DNA of 34,429 bases, from contig NZ_CADDIL010000002.1 of assembly GCF_902809815.1 (NCBI RefSeq), forward strand, positions 105,315-139,743, written 5' to 3'. Below, one piece after another: positions 5,508 through 23,086 of the stretch; the first letter of the stretch is position 1, and the number at the start of each line of letters is the position of its first letter. Made by a program: the position numbers and the translations under genes. The notes below the pieces were generated by a model. That model had not been told where the DNA came from and ran no database searches. It worked only from the letters and a program-made list of their open reading frames with translations. This stretch comes from Spiroplasma endosymbiont of Danaus chrysippus. Lineage in GTDB: Bacteria > Bacillota_I > Bacilli_A > Mycoplasmatales > VBWQ01.

Positions 5508-6014
5508 ATGTTGCAATTAACAATTAAAGGTAAACCCGTTCATATTAAAAATGAAATAATCAAAGTTGGAGATACTTTATCATTTTCTGCAGTTAATAAA
5601 AAAATGGATAATATGAATTTAGAACAATTCAATAATAAATTTAAGATTATTTCTAGTGTACCAAGCATTGATACTAAAACTTGTGCTTTACAAACTATAC
5701 ACTTTAATAAAGAGGCTACTAAATTAAAAGATTTAGTTATCATTACTATTTCCAAAGATTTACCATTTGCTCAAAGTCGCTTTTGTGAAAAACTAAAAAT
5801 GAATAATAATTTTCATATTTGAAGTGATTATCGTAATAATGAAAATAATTTTAGTAATACTACTAATTTATTAATTGATGAAATCCAATTATTAGCACGT
5901 ACTATTAGCATTGTTGATAAAAATAATAAAGTTATATATTTACAAATTGTTAAAGAAGTAACATTAGAACCAAACTATGATGAAGTTCTAAAATTTATTA
6001 AAACTTTAACATAA
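5508..6014 (+). CDS. tpx: Thiol peroxidase (atypical 2-Cys peroxiredoxin)
   Basis: 168-aa cytosolic peroxidase that reduces hydrogen and alkyl peroxides using thioredoxin. The core motif SVPSIDTKTC places the peroxidatic cysteine at C59 with the T-x-x-C threonine at T56. DLPFAQSRFC supplies the second (resolving) cysteine C93 and Arg91. Length and layout match the Tpx family. The ending LDEIQLLARTISIVDKNNK-type sequence followed by EVTLEPNYDEVLKFI is also typical. The ATG follows AAAGGGAGAG. One TGA Trp is present (IWSDYR). It is monocistronic, followed directly by a strong terminator. Confidence 0.93.
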
Positions 6015-6062
6015 AAAAAGTTAGGTAATACTTATTTTAAAAATATTACCTAACTTTTTTTA
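6013..6062 (+). terminator. Rho-independent terminator of tpx
   Basis: Stem AAAAAAAGTTAGGTAATA / TATTACCTAACTTTTTTT with a short AT loop and a T7 run. It starts inside the tpx stop codon region. Confidence 0.93.
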
Positions 6063-6083
6063 TTTATCAGTAGACTTTTAAAA

Positions 6084-14261: not shown

Positions 14262-15614
14262 TTACTTCCTTTCAAAATAAGGATTTATATCTGCACTTAA
14301 ATTTCTAATATATGGTTCTATAGCATAATCAAATGCATCTCGTAAATGGTCATCACCTGCTAATGGTATTTGTTTAATGCTTTTAGGGTCTCATACAGCC
14401 AATCTAAATTCATCTAATAATGCTTGTGCATTCATACTAATATTTAAGCGTTCTGATGCCATTAAAGCTACATTCTTACCTATTCTAAACTCAAGTCTTA
14501 ATTTCACACAATCTTTAAAATATAACCATGAATTGACTTGATATTTAATTGCTGTATCATTTAACATTTCAATAAATGTATAATTACTAAAATCACAATA
14601 TACAGTTAAACCATATTCATATAACAAATTATTTTCTTTTGCTAATTTAATATAAAACTCTACTACTAATCTTGCTAATTGTTTATTATCATATCTAACT
14701 AATTTATTTTCTATTTTTAAACAATCAATAACATTAACAAATTTAAAATTATAATCAAAACCTATTAATAAACATGCTAAAGCATCATCTTTAAACCCAT
14801 AATCTAATCCAGCACTAAATCTATAACTTGGTTGTAATAATCTACTAATCTTATGAATTAAATGTGAATATATTCCACCAGATTCATAACCTACTAAACC
14901 ATGACTTCTTACTCTTGCAGATATTGGGTCAAAAGTTTCTATTTCTAATAATTGTTGTTTATCACTATCTTTTAAATGAGTATTTAATTTTCAATTTTGA
15001 TAATGATAAATAGTATTATCAATAATAGTAAATTGTTCATATTCATTAATAATTTGTTTTTCATTTTGAGGACAAGCATTTATAGTCTTCTTAATAAATT
15101 CATTTAAAATACTTCAAGGATTACAACTTTCAATTTCTAATAATTGATTTGCACCACGAATAGCATCTTTTAAATCTTGATAATCATTTTCAGTAATTTC
15201 ATATCTTTCATCACTTCATATAATTACATAATCATATAAATAATTACTTGCTAATCCAGTTAATTTAACATTACTATTATCTTGTGCATGTAAATATTTA
15301 CAAGTGATTTTACTATTATTAAATTCAATAGTTTTTTTAGTTTCACTAATAATAAAATTAATACTAGGATATGTTGCTCTAATAATTTGTTTTAATTCTT
15401 GTCAACTATCATTTAATTGTTTTGACATATTACGAATTAAATAAGCATGAATATTAATATTATCTAACATTAATAAAATACCTAAGAATTCAATATCACT
15501 AAATGTTTTACCAGATTTACGACTACCTAATTGTTTAATTTTAGTAATATTTAAAGGTTGTTTTAAATACATTCTTTTAGCAATATCTAATAAATAACCA
15601 AAATTACTTAACAT
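14262..15614 (-). CDS. terL: Terminase large subunit
   Basis: 450-aa DNA-packaging motor that cuts concatemers and pumps DNA into the procapsid. Walker A is GSRKSGKT (residues 30-37). An ATPase region follows (DYVIIWSDERYEI as Walker B-like), then a RNase H-like nuclease domain with GLDYGFKDDALACLL. It ends AGDDHLRDAFDYAIEPYIRN, the usual final TerL block. The ATG lies in the terS stop region (ATGTTAA overlap), so the two are translationally coupled. Intact and complete. A diverged, 3'-truncated paralogue is at 19728-20657. Confidence 0.88.
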
Positions 15615-16003
15615 TTATTCTTACCTTTATTTTCTAAACTAATTGCTATAGGGGCGACGTTATCACTGTTTTTTATATCAATTTTTGTAGATAAATGATA
15701 TTTATTAACATATGCTCTTTTTAAATATCATGATGAAGTACCAGCATTTGAAGTTAAATATCTTTGTAAATTTAAGTGTTCAATTTGAGAATGCGCTCAA
15801 TTAATTTGTTGTAAAAAAGTATTTCTCTTTTTTTGTTTTCAAGTCCTAATAGTACTTTCAGTTATATCTAAATAAATTAACATTCCTAATTTTGTAGGAA
15901 CTTCTTTAAATTCATTACAATGAATAAAATAATTTTCTAATGATTCTCTTAATTTTTTAGCATCATTAAAAATTGTTCTTATTTTTATTTTTTCTTCTTG
16001 CAC
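15608..16003 (-). CDS. terS: Terminase small subunit
   Basis: 131-aa protein: an N-terminal helical segment, a helix-turn-helix-like part (PTKLGMLIYLDITESTIRTW), then a block (QRYLTSNAGTSSWYLKRAYV) that resembles the ending of small-terminase DNA-packaging proteins. It recognises phage DNA and recruits TerL. I chose GTG at 16003 because a perfect AAAGGAG lies 8 nt upstream; the ATG at 16021 would place that site inside codons 2-4. It overlaps terL by 7 bases. Confidence 0.72.
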
Positions 16004-16021
16004 ATAAAAATCTCCTTTCAT

Positions 16022-16179: not shown

Positions 16180-16488
16180 ACTATTTATTCCTTTTTTAAA
16201 TAATTTTTCTTTATCTTTTAATATTTCTTCTTCTGTTTTATTTTCAATATCTCTTAATCAATTTTCTCTTACTAATCCTTTTAAAGCAAGACCCCAACCT
16301 CCATATTTTTGTATTTCACTTATATCCAGTTCTATATTATTTAATTTAATAATTTCACCATAGGCAAAAAATAAATTATATTCTTTATTTTTTAAAACTA
16401 ATTTATAACTCTTAATTTTATTATTAAAATTTGGTCATTTTTTGTTAATATCACTTTTTTTATCTATTTTAATAATAATTTTATACAT
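16171..16488 (-). CDS. Hypothetical phage protein, 105 aa
   Basis: MYKIIIKIDKKSDINKKWPN... NNIELDISEIQKYGGWGLAL... ending KLFKKGINSKK. Basic, no membrane segment, TGA Trp at WPN and NWLRD. Its ATG overlaps the stop of the preceding membrane-protein gene (ATGTATAA). An in-frame ATG 12 bases upstream is possible. No family recognised; the second module has no counterpart. Belongs to the same transcript as 16481-16765. Confidence 0.55.
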
Positions 16489-16765
16489 TAGGAATTCCAT
16501 TTTTAATTTTATTTTTTATTTTTTTAAATTTAAATATTTTCTTAATTTTATTTTCTAAACTTTTTCAAAATTTATATTCGGGATGTTGTGATTTATATAT
16601 AATCATGCAACCAATAAAAGTACCTACTATAGGCAATGGAATTGTTATCAAAAAAATACCAAAAATTTTATCATTATTACAATATTTAATTCCATAATGT
16701 ATTAATAAAATTCATGTCATCTCTACTACTATTATTAATAATATCCATAATGTTCTTTCTAGCAT
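16481..16765 (-). CDS. Small membrane protein with two transmembrane segments
   Basis: 94 aa: MLERTLWILLIIVVEMTWIL is a first helix, IFGIFLITIPLPIVGTFIG a second, followed by a basic tail (KSLENKIKKIFKFKKIKNK). RBS AAAGGAAA precedes the ATG. Two-helix proteins of phage could be holins, but nothing specific shows this. A frameshifted homologue is at 21205-21472, so the gene is a regular part of this phage type. Confidence 0.6.
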
Positions 16766-16826
16766 TTTTTTATTTTCCTTTTCTATTTACTTTTTTCTTT
16801 ATTGTACATTATTTTATTAAAAAAGA

Positions 16827-16852
16827 AAAGATAACTAATAAAAGTTATCTTT
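16827..16852. terminator. Hairpin between divergent phage operon and UPF0236 gene
   Basis: AAAGATAACT / AGTTATCTTT with a 6-nt loop, followed on the minus strand by a pyrimidine-rich TTTTCTTTTTT. The same hairpin occurs in the second module near 21535-21560. It separates the minus-strand operon from the plus-strand transposase gene. Confidence 0.6.
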
Positions 16853-16914
16853 AAACGTTAAACTAGAAATACATCATTATCATCAATTTTATCGTTCTTT
16901 AATATTATACTATG

Positions 16915-17006
16915 AAACTAAACATTTTTCAACATTAAATTAATAAATTTGATACAATGCTTGGAGTTAAAAAATCAATGGAAAGGTGTTGAAAAATGTT
17001 TAGTTT
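16915..17006 (+). promoter_or_regulatory. 20-bp perfect inverted repeat covering the UPF0236 start codon
   Basis: AAACTAAACATTTTTCAACA (16915-16934) is the exact complement of TGTTGAAAAATGTTTAGTTT (16987-17006), with a 52-nt loop. The second arm contains the ATG at 16996, and the ribosome-binding site GAAAGG (16981-16986) abuts it. In RNA the hairpin would hide the start. A TATACT -10-like box lies just upstream at about 16907-16912. Confidence 0.8.
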
Positions 17007-18180
17007 TCAAAATTATTTGAACAATAAAATCAATGATATTAAATCATATTTTGTCAAAGAAGTCGAGGATTGAGATGAAAATTTTTTTCAAAATAGAACT
17101 GTAGAAGAAAAAGAAAGATATAAAGTTTCTAAAAAACGTAATAGAACAGTAAATACTGAAATTGGATTTACAACTTTTAATAGAAGAATATACTGAGATA
17201 CTATAGAAAAAAGAACTCGTTATTTTACAGATGAAGAATTTAATATTGAAAAACGTGCAAGAGTTATGAAAGATTTAAAATTAAAAATACTTAGTAATTT
17301 AATTAAAAACTTAATAACTAAAAAAACATATACACATATTCAAGCAGAATATGAATATACTTCTTTTTCTAAAAATCTTATTTCAAGAATTTTTAAAAAT
17401 GCAAAAATTGAAAAATTAATACCAGAACAAAAACATAAAGTATTATTTAATCAAAAATTAAATATATGTGCAGATGATGCTTTTATTACTTGTTGAGATG
17501 AAAATGGTTTAAAACGGCAATATTGTTGTAGAATTTTAACTTTTAATCTTGGTAAAAAAGAAATTTATTCATATAGAAATAAATTACAAAATAAAATAAC
17601 TGCATTTTTATTATTTAAATCTGGTAATGGTTTAAATCAAGAACAATTATATAATTTTACAACACAAACTATTCTTAATCATTATGATATTAATTTAAAT
17701 ATATTAGGTGTTCAATGAGAATATCATAATTATAATTTAGTAGTTGCTGGTGATGGTGCATTATGAATTAAAGCAATGGCTACTTGATTGGGATGTTATT
17801 ATATTTTAGATAAATATCATGCTTATAGTTATTTATGAAAATCTTTTGTTGGAGTTAAAGGTAAGAAAAAAGAATATCATGATTGAACTAAATATATTGA
17901 TGGAACAACTACTTTTGCAAGTGGAAATTGTAATCAATTACTTAGTTTTTTAAAACCTAATGTTAATGAAAAAATATATAATTATTTTAAAAATAATGCT
18001 CATGGTATTGTAAATCAAAATGCTAGTTGAAATATTGGTTGTTCTGCTGAAAGTGATGTTTATCATTTTTTAAAATCTTTAACTAATAGAGCAAAAATAT
18101 ATAATTATCAAACATTAAATAATATGTTAATAGCAAAAGCAAATTATTTAAATGCTAGAAGTTATATTAATAGTGCTTAA
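16996..18180 (+). CDS. UPF0236/Mbov_0401-type DDE transposase-like protein, copy A
   Basis: 394 aa. Related to the ISLre2/UPF0236 group, whose Mycoplasma members (Mbov_0401 type) are found in ICEs. Visible family motifs: ICADDAFITCW (candidate first Asp, D160/D161), VVAGDGALWIKA (D253), LDKYHAYSYLWKSF, and CSAESDVYHFLKSLTNR (candidate Glu E352), in the expected order. N-terminal half is basic and helical. RBS GAAAGG lies 9 nt before the ATG. UGA Trp is frequent. It is divergent from the phage late operon in both modules, suggesting a link with phage mobility (inference). Its stop codon lies in the IS256 target duplication, so the protein is complete. Confidence 0.8.
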
Positions 18181-18183
18181 AAA

Positions 18184-19558
18184 GAGGCTTTTTAGTAATC
18201 TGTGTTTCTTTGTTTTACAAAGTACTAGTTCAGATTAATTCTGTCTTCAAATTTTATCATAAAATGAGCAATTGCTGTATTTCAATTTTGAATAGGCAAT
18301 GTTCATTTTTTTGTGATATTTTCAATTGCTAAGTAAAAAATTTTAAAAACTGCCATATCATTAGGAAAAACTTTTTTATTTCTAATAACTTTTCGTAATT
18401 GGCTATTAACAGATTCAATAGCATTTGTAGTATAAATTACCCTTTTAATTTCTGCTGGATAACTAATAAAAACCATTAAATTTTCTCAATTTTTATATCA
18501 AGATTTAGCAATTTGTGGATATTGTTTATTTCATTTACTTTCAAATGATTCTAAAGCTTGCATTGCTTGTTCTTCACTACATGCTGTATAAATTGGCTTT
18601 AAATCGATAACTAGAGACTTTCGATGTTTGTATGAAACATATTTTAAGCTATTTCTAATTTGATGAACTATGCATAATTGATGTTCAGTTTTAGGATAAA
18701 CTGATTGTATTGCCTCTGACATGCCTGTTAAATTATCACTACAAGCAATAAGAATATCATTTAAGCCTCGATTTTTCATTTCTGTAAAATTATTTAATCA
18801 GAATTTAGCACCTTCATTTTCACTAATTCATAAACCTAAAACATCTTTTTTACCTTCTAAATCAACTCCTAAAGCTATATAAACTGATTTGTTAATAATA
18901 CGTTTATCCTGACGTACTTTAACTACGATACAATCAAAATAAATGATTGGATAAACACTATCTAATGGACGATTTTGCCATGCTTTGACATCATCAATGA
19001 CATCATCAGTAATTTGACTAATTACGCTTTCGCTAATATCTGCGCCATCATATAACTCTTGCAACTGCATTCTAATATCTGATAAAGTCATACCTTTTGC
19101 ATATAGTGAAAGAACTTGTTGATCAAAACCATCAAATCTTCTCTGTCTTTTTGTGATTATTACTGGTTCAAAATTACTATTGCGATCTCTTGGTACATCA
19201 ATTTCAATTTTACCTTGTTGAGTTATTAATTTTTTTGATGTTGTACCATTACGAACATTGTCATTATTACTGCGTTGATTTCTTTCGTGTCCTAAATAAT
19301 TTTGCATCTCAGAATTCAACATTTTTTCTACCAATCGTTTAGTTAATTCTTTATATAAGCCTCCCTCTTTAAAAACTGTTGTTAAATCCTCAGTATTTTC
19401 TAATAATAAATCTACTGCTTTTGATATTGGATCATTGTTATTAAGATTATCTTTTTTAGCCATCTGTAACTCACTCTTTCTAGATATATAAATTATATTT
19501 ACTAGAATTAATTAAACATAGTTATTTTTGTAAGTCACACAGATTACTAAACATTCCC
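18184..19558 (-). mobile_element. IS256-family insertion sequence, complete
   Basis: 1375 bp, ends GAGGCTTTTTAGTAATCTGTG and CACAGATTACTAAACATTCCC (terminal inverted repeat with mismatches near the tips). Flanked by the 8-bp target duplication CTTAAAAA (18176-18183 and 19559-19566), the size expected for IS256. The reference copy for the fragments at 6084-7574, 7814-7939 and 33048-33064. Confidence 0.95.
18225..19463 (-). CDS. IS256-family (mutator-type) transposase
   Basis: 412-aa DDE transposase that moves the surrounding element. Starts [20 protein letters not shown]. Family marks: the N-terminal [17 protein letters not shown] block, [19 protein letters not shown], first Asp in [12 protein letters not shown], second Asp in [14 protein letters not shown], the C-H pair in [10 protein letters not shown], and the Glu in [14 protein letters not shown]. 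Complete with two or more TGA Trp codons. Ribosome-binding site AGAAAGAGTGAG is modest. Placed antisense at the end of the UPF0236 gene. Confidence 0.95.
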
Positions 19559-19587
19559 CTTAAAAATTTAAAACTTCATATTTTTGA

Positions 19588-19614
19588 AAACTAATTTTAA
19601 GATTAGTATTTTTG
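19588..19614 (+). terminator. Trailing hairpin of UPF0236 gene A
   Basis: CTAAT TTTAAG ATTAG followed by T-rich TATTTTTGTTTTG. The same hairpin follows copy B at 22809-22835. It was separated from the gene by the IS256 insertion. Confidence 0.6.
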
Positions 19615-19727
19615 TTTTGTTTAAATGTAATTTTATAATTATATTGTTAAATATTTATATATTTTATGATATAATTAAAGTAACAAAAAATAGAAATACA
19701 TCAGTTTATTGTTCTTGTTGTCCCTTT

Positions 19728-20657
19728 CTATCCATTAATCTCATACGTCCTTTCTATTTTTAAACAATCAATAACATTAACAAATTTAAAATTATAATCA
19801 AAACCTATTAATAAACATGCTAAAGCATCATCTTTAAACCCATAATCTAATCCAGCACTAAATCTATAACTTGGTTGTAATAAACGTGATATCTTATGAA
19901 TTAAATGTGAATATATTCCACCAGATTCATAACCAACTAAACCATGACTTCTTACTCTTGCAGATATTGGGTCTAATTTTTCTATTTCTAATAATTGTTG
20001 TTTATCACTATCTTTTAAATAAGTATTTAATTTTCAATTTTGATAATGATAAATAGTATTATCAATAATAGTAAATTGTTCATATTCATTAATTATTTGT
20101 TTTTCATTTTGTGGACAAGCATTTATAGTTTTTTTAATAAATTCATTAAGAATTGACCAAGGATTACAACTTTCAATTTCTAATAATTGATTTGCACCAC
20201 GAATAGCATCTTTTAAATCTTGATAATCATTTTCAGTAATTTCATATCTTTCATCACTTCATATAATTACATAATCATATAAATAATTACTTGCTAATCC
20301 AGTTAATTTAACATTACTATTATCTTGTGAATGTAAATATTTACAAGTTATTTTACTACCATTAAATTCAATAGTTTTTTTAGTTTCACTAATAATAAAA
20401 TTAATACTTGGATAAGTTGCTCTAATAATTTGTTTTAATTCTTGTCAACTATCATTTAATTGTTTTGACATATTACGAATTAAATAAGCATGAATATTAA
20501 TATTTTCTAACATTAATAAAATACCTAAGAATTCAATATCACTAAATGTTTTACCAGATTTACGACTACCTAATTGTTTAATTTTATTAATATTTAAAGG
20601 TTGTTTTAAATACATTTTTTTAGCAATATCTAATAAATAACCAAAATTACTTAACAT
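19728..20657 (-). pseudogene. Terminase large subunit, second copy, 3'-truncated
   Basis: Aligned to terL A from its ATG (20657) through Walker A GSRKSGKT and the GLDYGFKDDALACLL nuclease motif, but breaks off near VIDCLKIE, replaced by RTYEING and TAG at 19728. About 140 C-terminal residues, including the final nuclease block, are missing. It differs from copy A at many third positions and some residues (MYLKQPLNINKIKQL for NITKIKQL), so it is a separate phage lineage rather than a recent duplication. The break joins spacer DNA at about 19748. Confidence 0.8.
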
Positions 20658-21472: not shown

Positions 21473-21570
21473 TTTTATTTTCCTTTTCTATTTATATTTT
21501 TCTTTATTGTACATTATTTTATTAAAAAAGAAAAGATAACTAATAAAAGTTATCTTTTAAACGTAAATAG

Positions 21571-22782
21571 AATTTTCAAGTTATCAAGTTATTAAACGTT
21601 TGTAAATATTATACTCTAAAATCAGAAATCACAGATATTTTAGCAAAATATTTTCAAAAAATCCATGATTTTGATGAATATTTTTTTCAAAATAGAGATA
21701 AAAATGAATATAAAATTGATTCAAGAGTTAATAGAACAATAAATACTCCAATTGGAATGGATACTTTTAGACAAAGAGTTTATTGAGATACAATTAATAA
21801 ACAATATTATTATCCCATTTATGAAGAATTTGGTATTAAAAAAAGAGCAAGAATTACTAATGATTTATATTTTGATATATTAGATAATTTAATTGAAAAC
21901 TTAATAAGTAAAAAAGGTTATTTTAATATTCAATCAGAATTTAAACATACTTCTTTTTCTAAAAATCTTATTTCAAGAATTTTTAAAGATTCAAAAATTG
22001 AAAAATGAATACCAGAAGAAAAATTTAAAGTATTAGATAATGAAAAATTAAATATATGTGCAGATGATGCTTATATAACTTGTTGAGATGAAAATGGTTT
22101 AAAACAACAATATTGTTGTAGACTTTTAACTTATAATTTAGGAAGAAAAGAAATTTATTCATATAGAAATAAATTAGATAAGAAAATAACTTCATTTATG
22201 TTATTTAAAACTAATAATGCACCAAAACAAGAAGAATTACATAATTTTACAATGCAAACTATTAATAATCATTATGATATTAAATTAAATATATTTGCTA
22301 TTAATTGAGAATATAATAATTATAATTTAGTAGTTGCTGGCGATGGTGCATTATGAATTAGAGCAATGGCTAGTTGATTGGGTTGTTATTATATTTTAGA
22401 TAAATATCATGCTTATAGTTATTTATGAAAATCTTTTGTTAATGTTCGTGGTAAACATCAAAAAAAAGCACTTGATTGAACAAAGTATTTAGATGTAACA
22501 ACTACTTTTTCAAATGGTAATTATAATGGATTAATTACTATTTTAGAAAATAATCATAATAAAGTTACTAAAAAAACTTATAATTATTTTAAAAATAATG
22601 AACAAGGAATTATTAATCAAAATGCTTCTTGAAATATTGGATGTTCTGCAGAAAGTGATGTTTATCATTTTTTAAAATCTTTAACTAATGGAGCAAAAAT
22701 ATATAATTATCAAACATTAAATAATATGTTAATTGCAAAAGCAAATTATTTAAATGCTAGAAGTTATATGAATAGTACTTAA
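21571..22782 (+). pseudogene. UPF0236/Mbov_0401-type transposase, copy B, start codon lost
   Basis: Open frame of about 404 codons homologous to copy A (ICADDAYITCWDENGLKQQY, VVAGDGALWIRAMASWLGCY, CSAESDVYHFLKSLTNG), with all three candidate catalytic positions kept. No ATG, GTG or TTG start aligned with copy A: the first ATG in frame lies well inside (PIGMDTF, about 21756). Compared with copy A, the sequence from the promoter-like TATACT joins directly to codon 13 or so, deleting the inverted repeat and start codon. Terminal residue region (LNARSYMNST) and TAA are intact. Confidence 0.8.
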
Positions 22783-22835: not shown

Positions 22836-22936
22836 TTGTTTAAATGTAATTTTATAATTATATTTTTTAGTATTTTTAAATTTTATGGTATAATTAAATT
22901 AAAAAATCATAGAATTTTCAAGTTATATTGTAAATG

Positions 22937-23086
22937 TTATTGAATTCTATGGGTTAAACTTATACGTCCAACTAAATTATCTTTTTTTAAATCATCAATC
23001 AGTTTAATTAGCCCTATTTTAAATTCAATATCATCACTGTCTGGTATGCAAATCGTTCCTCTTTTAGTTAAATATTCTTTATCCAT
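22937..23086 (-). CDS. Small acidic protein, 49 aa, unknown
   Basis: MDKEYLTKRGTICIPDSDDI ... LIDDLKKDNLVGRISLTHRI. Ribosome-binding site AGAAGG. The ATG lies inside the end of the preceding zinc-ribbon gene (overlap of 8 bases), so it is the third gene of an overlapping operon. No family recognised. The stop falls in a 9-bp inverted repeat CATAGAATT / AATTCTATG (22908-22948). Confidence 0.5.
   Translation of the reverse strand: MDKEYLTKRGTICIPDSDDIEFKIGLIKLIDDLKKDNLVGRISLTHRIQ

Follow-up and report, generated by a model that had tools for sequence, protein, structure and literature searches.

In the insertion sequences IS10 and IS50, an inverted repeat lies across the transposase start codon with a promoter inside it, and only RNA initiated upstream holds both arms. 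In the antisense-RNA immunity of the prophages P4 (CI RNA) and P1/P7 (c4), the leader of a phage operon is matched by a complementary small RNA of its own type. In ISPpu9 of Pseudomonas putida, a divergent RNA is made upstream of tnp and a complementary small RNA downstream of it; the 5' region of tnp is structured, and the upstream RNA overlaps the tnp 5'UTR and aids translation (PMC8450116). Finally, the integrative conjugative elements (ICEs) of Mycoplasma carry a DDE transposase gene at their 3' end and terminal inverted repeats, and generate direct repeats on random integration (PMC7466169).

Here we examine a stretch of 34,429 nucleotides (hereafter the window) from a Spiroplasma endosymbiont of Danaus chrysippus, in which a transposase-like gene begins within one arm of a long inverted repeat. 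As in IS10 and IS50, the repeat spans the start codon and has a promoter, here a predicted one, within; however, the gene is located inside a prophage of ~19-21 kb, the left arm also matches a promoter on the opposite strand, and the stem is imperfect in sister copies. A divergent upstream RNA and a complementary downstream small RNA, as known for ISPpu9, are both predicted at this locus, but there is no overlap between the RNAs predicted from the leftward promoter (P_L) and from the transposase promoter (P_R), and the complementarity depends on type. A predicted small RNA that is complementary to a predicted operon leader of its own type also recalls the antisense immunity of P4, P1 and P7, although its place of origin would be the element end and the predicted folding of the terminator is unchanged on binding. 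With the Mycoplasma ICEs the locus shares the 3' position of its transposase gene, a similar terminal and direct-repeat pattern and a gene that scores above the Mbov_0401 ICE cut-off, whereas phage packaging genes are present here. In the Spiroplasma phage MaM-2019a (OL689227), whose genome is ~19 kb long, terS/terL likewise diverge from a transposase gene located at one end, but the transposase is ~26% identical, and neither a matching minus-strand promoter nor a repeat of the leader block was found in it. On balance, we think it probable that the inverted repeat belongs to the control region of a transposable prophage, a compact segment with divergent promoters in which the RNA of neither promoter would contain both arms.

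The arms of the repeat in the window copy (copy A) are located at 16915-16934 and 16987-17006, are complementary at 20/20 positions and are separated by a spacer of 52 nt. The UPF0236 ATG (16996-16998) lies within the right arm, as noted in an initial annotation of this DNA, and a Shine-Dalgarno-like GGAAAGG (16980-16986, plus strand) is found just outside it. Perfect inverted repeats of at least 14 bp with a loop of 3-60 nt number 4 in the whole window, and the longest perfect inverted repeat in three dinucleotide shuffles of the window was 12-13 bp, which argues against a chance origin of the 20-bp repeat. Two further long perfect inverted repeats with short loops are found at 1345-1398 (23 bp) and 6011-6063 (20 bp). 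A role of the repeat as the terminal repeat of an insertion sequence can be ruled out, since the element ends were found at other positions.

The gene itself (16996-18180, plus strand) encodes 394 aa with TGA read as Trp and matches PF06782. It scores 201.6 bits against the NCBIfam Mbov_0401 ICE transposase-like model (NF046004; profile positions 1-367 of 369), exceeding the curated cut-off of 162 bits, while its score against the ISLre2 transposase model NF033529 (61.7 bits) falls below the curated cut-off of 200. Nor is it carried on a short ISLre2-like element, as it lies beside terL (14262-15614) and terS (15608-16021), both on the minus strand and divergent from it, and the prophage ends are ~19-21 kb apart. 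Twenty-two stretches of ~20 kb around copies of the UPF0236 gene were taken from four genomes. The left ends start with GGGCGCAT or a variant, and the right ends, where recognised, stop at ACGTCC or a variant. In three elements, 8-bp target duplications match at both flanks (GCAATAGC, CATAATAA and TAATCATT); a fourth flank match, TTGTCAAA, joins ends of different elements and was left out of this count. Defined ends with a short target duplication, and a transposase gene together with packaging genes, fit a transposable prophage, and UPF0236 is here the transposase-like gene of ~19-21-kb prophages with terS/terL rather than a lone insertion sequence. In six prophages its start codon is 1.34-1.38 kb inside the right end, toward which the gene reads.

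In the window, the right end of prophage A (ACGTCC, 19745-19750) apparently falls within terL of a second prophage, B, so that prophage A appears to be inserted in this gene (19663-20657); a search of the available stretches did not locate the left end of prophage A. A minus-strand frame of 412 aa (18225-19463), transposase-like by appearance, separates the UPF0236 stop from the right end of prophage A. At five loci (L056, L058, L096, L100 and L126), prophage ends adjoin the target word TTGTCAAA or its complement, next to a GGGCGG-like motif, which suggests a preferred insertion site. Single-protein scans of genome contigs and viral contigs found no relative, and a literature search on Spiroplasma with UPF0236 or ISLre2 found no paper in the library covered.

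Two promoters are predicted around the repeat. P_L, on the minus strand, consists of TTGAAA (16927-16932) and TATAAT (16904-16909) separated by 17 nt; it matches 11/12 consensus positions and is the best promoter match within 16450-17300, in a stretch where promoter-like sites as such are no more numerous than expected by chance (8 observed, 9.2 in shuffles). The left arm matches its -35 and spacer. A promoter-like TATACT proposed in the initial annotation is better read as the complement of the P_L -10, the minus-strand TATAAT. P_R, the predicted UPF0236 promoter, lies in the loop on the plus strand (16929-16958) and combines TCAACA, 18 nt and an extended -10, TGATACAAT (16950-16958); it scores 9/12, with TG ahead of the -10. 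In an alignment of 18 copies, on which the conservation of P_R is based, TTTGnTA and the last T of the P_R -10 are invariant, and both P_L hexamers are intact in 18/18 copies, as minus-strand TTGAAA-(16-17)-TATAAT. Within the P_L leader, a hairpin followed by a U-rich run (16827-16852, minus strand) may be a weak terminator or attenuator; the terminator scan did not list it. An Rfam search of 16400-19900 gave no match at E up to 1. An invertible promoter segment was considered and rejected, there being no inverted loop among the 18 aligned copies.

The control region that we favor was deduced from sequence, with conservation, deletion junctions, prophage ends and duplications read from it and with promoters, RNAs and functions as predictions. 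The left arm would serve as the -35 and spacer of P_L, from which RNA would start toward the ter genes, and the right arm would supply the transposase start codon beside the ribosome site. Between the arms, P_R would drive the transposase gene. Because the -35 elements of P_R and P_L overlap, use of one promoter probably precludes use of the other. Given the position of P_R in the loop, transposase mRNA would be made without the left arm, and only plus-strand RNA with a start farther upstream than that arm could fold into a hairpin that hides the AUG. With neither promoter's RNA carrying both arms, a translational block would be at most a secondary safeguard. The two arms probably resemble each other as a result of an old inverted duplication, which became perfect in copy A, and the resemblance is probably maintained mainly because each arm is required for a separate function.

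The initial annotation had assigned a different role to the repeat, namely a hairpin that limits transposase translation when transcription enters from outside, and had named absence of the repeat from other intact copies as the observation that would speak against it. Such absence was not seen: the repeat is not peculiar to copy A, and most of 17 other copies have an imperfect version of it. Across 17 distinct rows of the alignment, 83.5% of the arm cells are paired, compared with 36-56% when the arms are slid, and four arm pairs are altered on both sides. Selection on arm pairing is therefore possible on the alignment evidence. Pairs are also lost, however: those at columns 26-111 and 37-100 are broken in 14/17 distinct rows, mostly with C opposite A, and in L028 the C40-G96 pair is broken while TTGAAA is intact. 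Compared with shuffled upstream DNA, stem scores are high in L027 (16) and L026 (12), with 0/60 shuffles as high in each; the window copy, scored from a wrong start (ATGGAA), is left out of this comparison. The two G004 copies keep the promoter hexamers and have stem scores of 8 (22/60 shuffles as high) and 12 (4/60). As judged from these sequences, constraint tracks the promoter more closely than the stem, because the P_L hexamers are kept in every copy, G004 included, while pairing decays. Among 17 more distant UPF0236-type loci there was no such 5' repeat, the observed score being reached by at least 12/60 shuffles in each; MaM-2019a has a stem score of 9 (3/60 shuffles as high).

We also folded the 18 copies as RNA with and without the left arm, placing each transcript start by a rule based on the two -10 boxes. 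For the window copy, the probability that the AUG is unpaired is 0.00 with the left arm versus 0.70 without it. An open AUG in the shorter RNA is otherwise predicted for L042 (0.69), and the values for the other sixteen copies are 0.03-0.48; in several of them the AUG is equally or more covered when the left arm is removed. Structures were drawn for six copies. Of these, L025 and L042 form the long stem, L027 has a shorter stem in which the left arm pairs with the start region and other helices are enclosed, and the folds of L026, L043 and L048 lack the stem core. The other twelve copies are represented by energies and unpaired probabilities alone; when the left arm is included, the probability of an unpaired AUG in them is 0.02-0.50.

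These data bear on the possibility that the repeat acts as in IS10 and IS50, such that RNA from upstream folds and hides the AUG while RNA from the loop promoter, which is without the left arm, is translated. The perfect stem of the window copy, with its AUG buried in RNA containing both arms and free otherwise, fits this scheme, as do the inner promoter P_R, the core complementarity kept in most copies and the change in L042 of C-G to U-A at the start codon. Yet the longest frame of the L042 copy is 163 aa (L088), so this double change may be neutral, and the lack of a stem core in three of the drawn folds, the several copies whose AUG is at least as well covered in the shorter RNA and the absence of the repeat from the 17 more distant loci all argue against the scheme. 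The genetic setting differs as well: the gene neither occupies the end of a small element nor is read inward from an exposed end; the genes upstream of it are the ter genes, which point in the opposite direction. Transcription entering an IS-like 5' end from outside, as the initial annotation envisaged, does not suit a gene located inside a prophage behind divergent terS/terL, where RNA from upstream would cross the ter genes antisense. We thus regard this scheme as unlikely: of the proposed hairpin, what stands is a repeat that holds the start codon, recurs among copies and can bury the window AUG in RNA with both arms, while a limit on translation agrees poorly with hexamers kept as pairing decays and with a likely P_R mRNA that is without the left arm. 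A different proposal, in which the arms are two inverted operators for a DNA-binding protein, either a phage repressor or the transposase, that would mask the two promoters together with the start region, would account for the related TGTTrAAA-like words in the left arm, loop and right arm, and for a palindrome, TATTTTAACAAATTTGTTAAAATA, over the P_R -10 in the loop of L044 and L050. AT-rich words recur easily, however, the window copy has not retained the palindrome, and a repressor gene was not identified, making this proposal quite improbable in our judgment. We therefore continue with the divergent control region as the preferred reading.

A second UPF0236 copy in the window (copy B, frame at 21622-22782, plus strand) has lost this region and is without promoter, ribosome site and start. 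Its sequence at 21610-21630 is TATACTCTAAAATCAGAAATC, in which the repeat, the Shine-Dalgarno and the start codon are all missing and the remaining frame is open. The joint loss of repeat and start codon, already noticed in the initial annotation, can be attributed to one deletion between short direct repeats: the junction (21608-21621) holds the complement of the P_L -10, ATTATA (21608-21613), and a single TCTAAAA (21615-21621). Three other copies (L034, L033 and L058) likewise have TATACTCTAAAA fused to the coding region and a single TCTAAAA. In the intact type I/II copies L074, L078, L079 and L090 (types refer to the P_L leader; see below), TCTAAAA occurs at offsets 7 and 111-112 from ATTATACT, such that two repeats 104-105 bp apart bracket the inverted repeat; the exceptions are L072, without TCTAAAA, and L082, with one. 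As read from these junctions, the four deleted copies lost the interval between the two TCTAAAA repeats. The leader of copy B is of type I and those of the other three are of type II, which implies that the deletion either arose at least twice or arose once and was transferred. Location of the inverted repeat inside the two TCTAAAA may help slipped-strand deletion in type I/II copies, and the deletion, which takes away the P_L -35, P_R, ribosome site and start all at once, should silence both directions.

The P_L leaders contain a further feature that links them to the other side of the transposase gene. In types I-IV, a block of the leader has a second copy close to the right end, directly behind a TATAAT that follows ATGG or ATGA. 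In prophage A, the type IV block of the leader (16864-16876, minus strand; TAGAAATACATCA on the plus strand) is exactly complementary to a predicted right-end RNA, with an outward promoter-like TTTATGATATAAT at 19663-19675 and the second copy of the block just after it at 19691-19703, both on the plus strand. In prophage B, the leader of copy B has a type I block (21567-21584, minus strand), and on the plus strand a promoter-like site (22882-22894) and the type I block (22909-22926) precede the right end at 22969. Leader and right-end blocks are of the same type in 13/15 prophages that have both parts. The 13 are not independent events, since the type definitions come from the sequences compared here, and the better count is four, the number of types. 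The length shared by matched pairs is 18 (I), 15 (II), 14 or 11 (III) and 13 (IV) nt, compared with 6-9 for mismatched types I-IV. The two G004 prophages (L086 and L087) show no match between leader and right end. Their leaders are of a fifth type, and the right end of L086, whose transposase is 76-80% identical to that of type III, is itself of type III; a search of six genomes allowing up to 3 mismatches gave no type V right end for these leaders. Some type I prophages have two or three tandem ATAACTTG units in the leader and others one, as seen in the leaders of L076, L078 and L081.

These matches suggest an antisense-RNA pair, possibly one that defines immunity types. A model of immunity or copy control, in which the right-end RNA pairs with the P_L leader of its own type and at least four types coexist through mutual non-recognition, is offered tentatively as one possibility; the stem of the leader terminator has a probability of 0.99 both with and without the block bound, and no antiterminator was predicted in the leader. 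The blocks could instead be DNA sites for the transposase, as they are direct repeats in DNA and one of them is near the element end, a frequent place for transposase binding. However, the division between types I and II is not mirrored in the transposases, given that identity across types (90% for L092 of type I and L090 of type II; 93% for L081 of type I and L091 of type II) exceeds that between the two type I copies L092 and L081 (83%). A promoter-like site directly ahead of the right-end block, and the restriction of each block to leader and right end in the stretches searched, also speak against binding sites, and we find such a role rather doubtful.

Overall, this analysis places a gene annotated as UPF0236 in transposable prophages whose ends and target duplications can be recognised. 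The layout of their divergent control region offers a possible switch between transposition and packaging genes, and a small recurrent deletion removes that region. Type-matched RNA pairs could explain how several related prophages share one genome.
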